From Calditrichia bacterium (lineage in GTDB: Bacteria > Calditrichota > Calditrichia > RBG-13-44-9 > J075): a DNA stretch of 64,000 nt. This document shows, piece after piece, positions 41,200 to 43,866 of this stretch. Numbering within the stretch: the stretch's first letter is position 1; each line of letters opens with the position of its first letter. A program made the position numbers and the translations under genes. The notes below the pieces were generated by a model, which was given only the letters and a program-made list of their open reading frames with translations, did no database searches and was not told where the DNA came from. The stretch covers positions 1 through 64,000 of the forward strand of contig JANQRS010000030.1 in assembly GCA_028284445.1 (NCBI GenBank). Direction: 5' to 3'.

Positions 41200-41494
41200 G
41201 GAAAAATGATGCTAAGACATTGTTAATAATAGAATTGGTTTGAAAATGGTTCGTTGCCTGTTTCATGCCAGAATGTCTGAACAGGAAGACCAAATTGGCA
41301 AGTTTTGATGCCATAAAGGACTTTTCATGTTAGCAACACCCGGCGTCTGCGGCAGTGATTGATTTAGTATGTTTAAAGAATATAAACTTAATTTCAGCGA
41401 AACGCACCTACGATCTGTTTCCTCCTGGATTTTTCTCCCAAATTACCATATCAGTTTATTTATCGATTGCACTGCTCTCTCTTCCTTTTTAATA

Positions 41495-41592
41495 TAGTGA
41501 ACCAAAACTAGTGAACAAATGTATATTATTTTTCGCTTGACAATGGGAGTCGATCTGATTACTATTTAAGTGAATATTTGTTCACTAGTTTT
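41495..41592 (+). promoter_or_regulatory. Promoter between two 17-bp inverted repeat arms (operator)
   Basis: TTGACA at 41537-41542 and TACTAT at 41560-41565 are 17 bases apart. AAAACTAGTGAACAAAT at 41504-41520 and its exact reverse complement at 41576-41592 flank them. A further TAGTGAAC half-site lies at 41495-41502, 14 bases before the one in the left arm. The right arm would overlap the transcription start, so a bound repressor could block transcription, possibly by looping. Confidence 0.75.
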
Positions 41593-41677
41593 TGATTTCA
41601 CCTCCAGTCCGTGTGAAAACACATTCTTCGTATTTTTAACTGTTTTATAAACAATTATTTACTGAAAGGGATTTGAG

Positions 41678-41974
41678 ATGCAGGACTTCGTAATGTTAGA
41701 CTCGAAAGCCGTTGCGCAGGCTTTTTGCCGGGAGCTTGGACAGGAAGAACGCGGTATCATTAGCCATGATATTGATGTCCGCGAGCTGTCTCCGCGTGAA
41801 TATCTGCTACATACCTGGGCTTCGTCAAACCAGTATGTATCGGGCGCGCAGCGCATTGTGAATCGTGAATTGCCGGCTGAGCAATACCGCCAGCTGCGTT
41901 TCCGCAAAGTAATTGCCAAAACCGATAACCGTGATCAAACAGCAGGAGGGCGTGAGAATGGAACTGCGGTCTAA
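41678..41974 (+). CDS. Small soluble protein, first gene of the three-gene module, unknown
   Basis: 98 residues, mainly helical in appearance, charged, with no membrane segment or recognised motif (features: ELGQEERGIISHDIDVRELS, NRELPAEQYRQLRFRK). A GGGA-type site precedes the ATG, about 105 bases after the promoter's -10 element. Its last 17 bases overlap the next gene, so translation is probably coupled. Its basic, Arg-rich C-terminal half could bind nucleic acid, but nothing in the sequence proves this. Confidence 0.7.
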   Translation: MQDFVMLDSKAVAQAFCRELGQEERGIISHDIDVRELSPREYLLHTWASSNQYVSGAQRIVNRELPAEQYRQLRFRKVIAKTDNRDQTAGGRENGTAV

Positions 41975-42689
41975 ATTCAGGGAAATGGTCAAGTACCGGG
42001 CAGGTGCGCTTTGTTTGATCGGTATTCTCAGTGCAACATTCCTGCATACCACGACTTTCATGAGTCAGTTTTTTTATAACAATATCATACTAGGTGCCAT
42101 TGCTGCATTTGCAATCGACGCAGGTGTAGTAGCTATGTCTATCTTCAAAGACGAGCTCCTTAAAGATGGCGAATTGGCGTGGATGGTCCGCGTTGTTACA
42201 AGTCTGGTTCTTTTCGCTTCCGGCATTGCCAATATGTCTGAGGGATTTCGTTCAGCATATGGATTGCATCTGACCTATGACAATTTGTTATCGCTGGATC
42301 CCTTAACCTGGACGCAGTGGCTAGCCGGAACAGTCATCTTCCCGATCCTTGCTTACGTCATGTGTGATACGATTGGTACTCGCAATCTGATTCAGCTGCG
42401 CCAGGAACGGCTTGTCCGTAATGTCAATCCCCGTCCGAAGGCTCGTCGCGTAAGCAGTGGCCATACTTCCCGCGGCAGCCTTGGTGCTGCTAACCAAAAG
42501 ATTCAAAGCAACAAGCGTCAGCGTATCCAGGAATTGGAACTATATCTGGAAAGCTATCCCGATGCCAGCTTGGCGGAGATGGCAGATGCCATTGGTGTCT
42601 CGTCGCGTGAAACCGTACGCAAGTATTTAAATGAGATTGGCGTGAAAGATCGTGCGTCCGCCAAAACCGTGAAATTCAGTAAAAACTAG
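41958..42689 (+). CDS. Four-helix membrane protein with a C-terminal helix-turn-helix (DUF2637-like layout)
   Basis: 243 residues. Four predicted transmembrane helices span residues ~15-145 (ALCLIGILSATFLHTTTF, NIILGAIAAFAIDAGVVAM, VTSLVLFASGIANMSEG, LAGTVIFPILAYVMCD). A basic linker (RPKARRVSSGHTSRG) follows. The C-terminal part has a helix-turn-helix pattern: ELYLESYPDASLAEMADAIG, VSSRETVRKYLNEIG. The layout recalls DUF2637/SpdB-type proteins of actinobacterial mobile elements, an inference from architecture only. A membrane-tethered DNA-binding protein is the simplest reading. AGGAGG lies 8 bases before the ATG at 41958; a longer frame opens at 41913. Confidence 0.75.
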   Translation: MELRSKFREMVKYRAGALCLIGILSATFLHTTTFMSQFFYNNIILGAIAAFAIDAGVVAMSIFKDELLKDGELAWMVRVVTSLVLFASGIANMSEGFRSAYGLHLTYDNLLSLDPLTWTQWLAGTVIFPILAYVMCDTIGTRNLIQLRQERLVRNVNPRPKARRVSSGHTSRGSLGAANQKIQSNKRQRIQELELYLESYPDASLAEMADAIGVSSRETVRKYLNEIGVKDRASAKTVKFSKN

Positions 42690-42704
42690 GGAAGGAGGCA
42701 GACC

Positions 42705-43640
42705 ATGCTGGACGTGATTCGTAATTTCAAAGAATATCTGGAAGTTGACTGCCGCCTTCCGCATGCCCGTGTAGATGATCACATGAGCTGCATGCCGCAA
42801 ATCATGCAAAATCTAAAAATTGAAAATATTCGTGATTTGAGTCCGCAACATGTGAATCGGGAGTGGCGTCACAGCCGCTGGAAGCCCACGCAAAAAGGTA
42901 TTTCCATCTCGGAATCCGCAGAGCGCGGTTATCTGCCGGTCCTGAAGATGTTTCTGAGGTATTTGGAAGATCAGCAATATCCGGTTAGCTCCGGTCTTGC
43001 AGACATCATCCGTATTCCTGATCAGGCCTTTTTTGAAGTTCGCGAAATGAGCCTGGAGGAGCGGCGTCAGCTGCGTGAGGCTTTGATTGCCCCTGTCTCG
43101 AAAGAGCAGCAGCGTCGTGATCAACTGCTGGTGCTCCTCTTATGGGCAACCAAATGCTCACTGGAAGAGGCTTTGGCGCTCTGTGTCAATCGTGATGGGA
43201 CATTGGAAGCTGATGAGGAGGGTGGGGTTCGTGCCGGTCATTTCCTGCTTCGTGATGGCTGCGTTTCGGTAATGCTGCCCGGTCATCGTAAAGAAGCGGT
43301 TGAGAAAGCATTGCCGGATGAGGTGGCCGTTTTGCTGCGGGAATATCTCGAAAATAGGTCGGAGCGAGATAGCCGGCTTTTCCTCGGAGCAAAAGGGCGT
43401 GGACGGAGACGGCCGATGACCGTGCGCAGTGCCATGACGGCAATTTACCGTGTCTTATCCGCTGCCGGTATTCAAGTACCGCTCTCATCTGTGGATCAGC
43501 TCTTGCTGAACAGCCGTTATTATGACGGTCAGGAAGAAGCTGAGCTAGCGAAAATGCCTTCTCGTGAAATCGTCATGATGACCGATCGTCACGATGAGCG
43601 CGATGAGCTGCAGGCATGGATGCTGCCCCAGGTGGCTTGA
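42705..43640 (+). CDS. Tyrosine-recombinase-like protein with degenerate catalytic domain
   Basis: 311 residues. The N-terminal 100 residues look like the core-binding (SAM-like) domain of phage integrases (FKEYLEVDCRLPHARVDDHM; NREWRHSR; YLPVLKMFLRYLEDQQYP). The C-terminal part follows the integrase fold (LLVLLLWATKCSLEEALAL; LLREYLENRSERDSRLFLG; VRSAMTAIYRVLSAAGIQVP). The catalytic Arg expected in the first of these segments is Ser, the HxxR box is absent, and no nucleophile Tyr sits in a normal context. It should bind DNA but not recombine it. GGAGG precedes the ATG, 15 bases after the previous gene. Confidence 0.65.
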   Translation: MLDVIRNFKEYLEVDCRLPHARVDDHMSCMPQIMQNLKIENIRDLSPQHVNREWRHSRWKPTQKGISISESAERGYLPVLKMFLRYLEDQQYPVSSGLADIIRIPDQAFFEVREMSLEERRQLREALIAPVSKEQQRRDQLLVLLLWATKCSLEEALALCVNRDGTLEADEEGGVRAGHFLLRDGCVSVMLPGHRKEAVEKALPDEVAVLLREYLENRSERDSRLFLGAKGRGRRRPMTVRSAMTAIYRVLSAAGIQVPLSSVDQLLLNSRYYDGQEEAELAKMPSREIVMMTDRHDERDELQAWMLPQVA

Positions 43641-43823
43641 AGTGCGAAGCCACTGACACATTGCGCTTAGACACTGGTTCCGGAATGTGGCACTCTGAAT
43701 ACGGTTAATGATGATTGCGGTGTTAGCGCTCGACAGAGCGATGAGGGGTGAATTTGTCACGTGCTTCCGAACATAGCAAGCCTGTACCAAAAGGGACTTT
43801 GGCGGGAATGAAAATTTCCGCTC

Positions 43824-43866
43824 AACATCCGGGTCAGATCTGTGGGATCGGCCCGGATGTTTTCTA
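43824..43866 (+). terminator. Terminator of the three-gene module
   Basis: AACATCCGGG at 43824-43833 and CCCGGATGTT at 43852-43861 form a perfect 10-bp stem, followed by a short T-run. The loop carries GATC words that could pair inside. Bases 43641-43823 show no gene. Confidence 0.8.

Follow-up and report, generated by a model that had tools for sequence, protein, structure and literature searches.

The window, that is, the whole stretch of 64,000 nucleotides analysed here, belongs to an 8.2-Mb Calditrichota genome and carries three tightly coupled genes, p1, p2 and p3, preceded by a sigma70-like promoter and followed by an intrinsic terminator. The first gene (p1, 41678-41974, + strand) encodes a protein of 98 residues that occurs only with the p1-p2-p3 module, the second (p2, 41958-42689, + strand) a protein of 243 residues with four predicted membrane helices, a variable linker and a C-terminal HTH-like region (about residues 181-230), and the third (p3, 42705-43640, + strand) a protein of 311 residues predicted to be a catalytically dead tyrosine recombinase. 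The genes p1 and p2 overlap (the ATG of p2 is at 41958) and 15 nt separate p2 from p3. The terminator hairpin (43824-43861, + strand; -25.8 kcal/mol, z -5.3) is followed by a T-rich tail; it is absent from the list of a simple pattern scan, in which the features counted differ. The promoter (TTGACA-N17-TACTAT, 41537-41565, + strand, with the -35 element at 41537-41542 and the -10 element at 41560-41565) is conserved in the orthologues and lies between two inverted arms of 17 nt each (41504-41520 and 41576-41592), which are 100% complementary and have 55 nt between them. The arms, the promoter, the three coupled genes and the terminator had been described in the original prediction, and each of them was verified in the sequence. 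This architecture is more than a product of chance, since the orthologues show the arms, the promoter and the order of the genes again.

By motif identity, the arms are two predicted LexA (SOS) boxes of the GAAC-N4-GTTC type, to which LexA would be expected to bind. Box 1 (CTAGTGAACAAATGTATATT, 41508-41527, + strand) is placed upstream of the -35 element, as is the box of the lexA promoters, and covers most of the left arm, while box 2 (CTAGTGAACAAATATTCACT, 41569-41588, - strand) follows right after the -10 element, covers most of the right arm and is conserved in the orthologues. An extra half-site (TAGTGAAC, 41495-41502, + strand) is a weak match to the LexA box (score 8.8). The repressor that membership of an SOS regulon requires is encoded in the same genome (L075; TIGR00498, 215 bits for a cut-off of 111), and the promoter of this lexA gene has the layout of the module promoter, with TTAGTGAACAAAT, TTGACA, the -10 element and GGTGAACCTATGTATAC in succession (in a longer reading, TTAGTGAACAAATTTT, TTGACA, TATTAT and GGTGAACCTATGTATACG). 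The same layout was found in the lexA promoters L077-L080 and L082-L084, which come from two families of the order (four more genomes of f1, the family of the window, and three of f2), and some lexA promoters of family f3 carry related sites. The GTGAAC form of the box seems to be proper to the order of the window, because the readable lexA promoters of families f4 to f6 show GTGTAC-type sites instead. The same box is present at recA in the window's genome and in G030, G031 and G033, and at uvrA in the window's genome.

A matrix was derived from 22 lexA and recA sites from which the module sites were excluded; these sites had been chosen by their GTGAAC core, so that the matrix is not fully blind. 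When the window was scanned with it, the module arms ranked first (box 1, 24.4) and second (box 2, 22.6), the best score outside the promoter being 12.0, and their scores were unequalled in 30 simulated windows. The regulon was searched genome-wide with a degenerate pattern and not with the matrix, and the pattern RGTGAACN5TNYAC occurred 18 times versus three for the reversed control. High-scoring boxes precede recA, lexA, uvrA, a DUF721-gyrB pair, a macrodomain gene, hrcA, an SplB-like radical-SAM gene and the module (apart from lexA and recA, the genes were named by visual inspection of their translations); those of the macrodomain gene, the DUF721-gyrB pair, the SplB-like gene and hrcA are predicted near position 1501 of L127, L117, L130 and L128, respectively. 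The core of the box is that of the Bacillus-type LexA operator GAAC-N4-GTTC (PMC4234289), with equal core and spacing, whereas the Calditrichota box is extended (TAGTGAACAWWW...) and usually occurs twice per promoter. A literature search found no described LexA motif for Calditrichota, and the operator presented here for the window's order makes its SOS regulon readable.

The orthologous module promoters share a box before the -35 element and the palindrome AGTGAA-N6-TTCACT right after the -10 element; at L017 the right box is good and the left one weak. The best box scores lie between 19.2 and 24.4 in each of the six module promoters that could be read and also at the solo p2 of G032, and every chromosomal p2 with a readable promoter bears a box. 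The p2 copies found in mobile elements and phage (L015, L045 and L046) retain the HTH with box scores of at most 11.1, and a truncated p2 fragment (L025) reaches 12.8. In G032 the second chromosomal p2 (L020) stops short of the HTH, and its promoter box nevertheless scores 22.3. The box thus tracks the chromosomal setting and not the HTH.

The conservation of the module was surveyed in 40 genomes of the phylum, seven of which constitute f1. Module genes are present, at least in part, in all seven, and the complete p1-p2-p3 set in five (the window, L016, L017, L018 and L019); in the remaining two a contig end interrupts it, p1-p2 running off the contig in G033 and the p3 of G029 lying at the edge of its contig, next to the same peptidase gene. 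The genes p1 and p2 occur in an identical set of six f1 genomes, and p3 also in six. The co-occurrence of the three genes in relatives, by which the original prediction was to be checked, is therefore conserved. The flanking genes are lon and/or an M3-like peptidase in five genomes (the window, L018, L019, L021 and L071), and the module lies at a different locus in G032 and G034. Among the other families of the 40 genomes no p2 was found, and the search for p1 outside f1 gave one marginal match full of stops. Two near-identical dead p3 paralogues of G032, each at a contig end (L069:5669-6541 and L070:5893-6768), suggest a duplicated module collapsed in the assembly.

The four hydrophobic segments and the C-terminal HTH-like region of p2 were found as originally proposed. 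In an alignment of chromosomal, element and phage copies the membrane domain is near-invariant and the HTH conserved to a fair degree, whereas the linker differs freely from copy to copy. Profile support for the HTH is weak (best E 0.001 among 8 members, below the Pfam cut-offs) and the predicted structure is poor (pLDDT 57). The membrane part is covered by no family in Pfam, NCBIfam or the PDB, and none of the 8 members matches the LytTR domain. The positive charges flanking the segments suggest that the N-terminus and the HTH face the cytoplasm. Between L018 and L019 the dN/dS ratio is 0.08 for p2 (0.04 for its membrane part), 0.24 for p1 and 0.08 for the neighbouring peptidase; purifying selection on p2 is thus strong. 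All near-full-length copies, chromosomal and mobile, have the HTH except L020, and because this chromosomal p2 is devoid of the HTH, DNA binding by p2 is not essential in every copy. The assignment of p2 to DUF2637 (PF10935), actinobacterial membrane proteins that it presumably resembles in its four helices with polar residues, was rejected, the profile missing p2 in its own genome at E values up to 10, and p1 was rejected as a degenerate Xis/AlpA protein (profile comparison probability of 1.3%). No PADLOC anti-phage defence model matched the module. A prophage protein of 488 residues in the window's genome (L022:8975-10441, - strand) carries the p2 HTH (about 67% identity over 57 residues) on another membrane domain, and two stranded p2 fragments comprise the first 23 residues (L025:5281-5349, - strand) and the last 54 residues (L024:8144-8305, - strand).

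The fold search with p3 retrieved XerH (E 2.3e-5), the integron integrase IntI, XerA and the DNA-bound SroF of phi3T. The model is of moderate quality (pLDDT 75) and the PDB matches have low TM-scores (0.3-0.4); by fold, p3 is placed in the tyrosine recombinase superfamily within the limits of these scores, and its sequence points the same way (phrog_1, E 3.4e-6; Phage_integrase and SAM_1 in alignment members). The protein is devoid of Arg I, the HxxR box, the second His and a plausible Tyr. A relative from family f4 (L072) has an intact active site and aligns with p3 over nearly the whole length, and by comparison HxxR, the second His and the Tyr are lost in all aligned copies, Arg I being kept only in L018 and L019; the HxxR box is now degenerate, with no His and with the Arg in some copies only. 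Together with a dN/dS of 0.11 (L018 versus L019; 0.05 for the first 115 residues), this loss bears out the dead integrase-like protein of the original prediction. Since the active site is lost and the dN/dS is low, p3 is, as far as sequence comparison tells, a non-catalytic protein kept by selection, and the loss of catalytic residues across the aligned copies led us to reject it as an active recombinase. Neither p3 nor L072 has a match in viral contigs. The neighbours of the active relative include RAMP-like (Cas-like) and PAPS-reductase-like genes (L072:1-5000), and it possibly lies in a mobile element.

The module is probably a LexA-repressed SOS operon for a membrane-tethered regulator that would bind DNA and act with p3. 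Repression by LexA that is opened by damage is established for LexA in general, and at this locus LexA seated on the two boxes flanking the promoter would keep the operon shut. DNA damage would lead to the RecA-stimulated self-cleavage of LexA and thereby open the operon, and p1, p2 and p3 would be made. In this scheme p2 would be a four-helix protein of the inner membrane with its HTH kept on the cytoplasmic side, and p3 a recombinase turned DNA-binding protein, able to bind without cutting. The most probable output would be that p2 together with p3 adjusts envelope or cell-division genes, or resident mobile elements, during damage.

In Bacillus, YneB is a relative of resolvases and YnzC is the third member of the yneA operon. 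The set yneA-yneB-ynzC (PMC6051672 for yneA-yneB) is similar to the module in that it is LexA-controlled and combines a membrane protein, a recombinase relative and a small protein, but the protein families are different as far as known and YneA has one membrane helix. Comparable to p2 is HigX of Caulobacter crescentus, a LexA-controlled four-helix DNA-binding protein that binds promoters of envelope genes and is toxic in filamentous cells (PMC13384398). In HigX four membrane helices are followed by a low-complexity linker and a C-terminal DNA-binding domain; p2 shows four hydrophobic segments, a variable linker and a putative C-terminal HTH that falls below cut-offs, in a poor model, and its control by LexA is predicted. 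The DNA-binding domain of HigX is of the LytTR type and its gene is located behind higBA, the partners of p2 being p1 and p3. The counterpart of p3 is MrpR, the master repressor of SPbeta, which has a dead tyrosine recombinase fold, has lost recombination, binds DNA and represses (PMC10516654). The two have in common the tyrosine recombinase fold and the loss of catalysis, with DNA binding demonstrated for MrpR and presumed for p3; MrpR keeps the Lys and the Tyr, whereas p3 is without a plausible Tyr. SroF of phi3T, among the fold matches of p3, was solved bound to DNA (PDB 9rd5). MrpR and SroF are phage genes with no membrane partner described, while p3 is chromosomal and accompanied by p2. 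These likenesses would be of working and not of membership, for HigX because a LytTR domain is missing from p2. Should p2 bind DNA, HigX would no longer be the sole four-helix membrane protein under SOS control that ends in a DNA-binding tail, and p2 would be the second, built on another kind of DNA-binding domain. With p3, the conversion of dead recombinases into regulators would reach beyond phages, to an operon conserved on chromosomes.

The original prediction had the HTH of p2 binding the arms and repressing its own operon, a reading invited by the inverted arms that surround the promoter and by the HTH protein that the operon encodes; in the case of HigX, too, the locus is regulated in part by its own product, alongside LexA (PMC13384398). 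However, in both sequence and position the arms correspond to the operators of lexA and recA in the window's genome and in neighbouring ones, and the pairing of HTH and arms breaks down in both directions, the box being retained where the HTH is lost (L020) and missing from elements and phage that keep the HTH. Autorepression through the arms appears very unlikely, and SOS control, as judged from the operators, would supersede it with good confidence; p2 might modulate its own promoter in addition to LexA. A dead recombinase and mobile relatives of p2 could also be expected of a decaying remnant of an integrated element with no present function, but this is hardly conceivable for genes found in all seven genomes of the family, at the same locus in five, with reading frames and boxes kept and dN/dS values of 0.08-0.24. 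The main rival to the regulator reading, by analogy with SOS division inhibitors, would be that the four-helix domain of p2 itself does the work, for example as a checkpoint of division or of the envelope in the manner of YneA or SidA, and that the HTH tunes expression. Known SOS division inhibitors are mostly small, single-helix proteins, which argues against it, as do the retention of the HTH in all near-full-length copies but one and its joining to a different membrane domain in L022. The membrane domain is nevertheless by far the most conserved part of p2, with its dN/dS of 0.04, G032 keeps a boxed p2 without an HTH (L020), and membrane division inhibitors are common among SOS products and mutually non-homologous (PMC6051672), so that this explanation is possible, if somewhat unlikely.

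A further alternative concerns the mobile copies of p2. An integrative element of the same genome (L015) carries two, one of them 85% identical to the p2 of the window and the other directly upstream of an intact small tyrosine recombinase; besides the two p2, the small tyrosine recombinase and an Xis-like gene, the stretch L015:3429-12884 contains a primase-helicase and a separate integrase. In a viral contig (L045) p2 again follows an Xis-like gene and precedes an intact recombinase, and in a tailed phage (L046) p2 stands alone, as a separate unit, and clusters with the chromosomal copy of G032 (support 92/93). No match to p2 was found among sequenced phages or plasmids. Few forks of the p2 tree are supported, and the direction of exchange cannot be read from it; the simplest reading is more than one exchange of p2 between chromosomes and elements. 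Direct descent of p3 from the recombinases beside p2 in the elements was rejected, as these have 232-245 residues, are without most of the N-terminal region of p3 and align with it worse than L072 does; the common gene order therefore stays unexplained. By means of p2 and p3 the host could exert SOS control over damage-induced prophages and integrative elements, hence the p2 copies there. That p2 is carried by an integrative element, by a viral integrative contig and by a tailed phage, two of which have an intact recombinase beside it, and that p3 derives from an integrase-type recombinase, is consistent with this, but no p2 or p3 site was found in any element and the element copies may be passengers, which makes it an improbable account. 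Returning to the regulator reading, we tentatively see in the module an undescribed Calditrichota family of damage-induced, membrane-tethered DNA-binding regulators with a domesticated dead recombinase, which may link the envelope or resident mobile elements to the SOS response and may have been repeatedly exchanged with phages and integrative elements. The phage and element copies make the role of p2 in the damage response directly testable. Long hairpins with a T-run, for which no Rfam family was found except for the neighbouring tRNA, precede two of the mobile genes and resemble leader terminators: one lies just before the start codon of the phage p2 (L046:7925-7985, + strand; z -2.3), and the other just before that of the gene of the 488-residue HTH membrane protein (L022:10460-10535, - strand; z -3.4).
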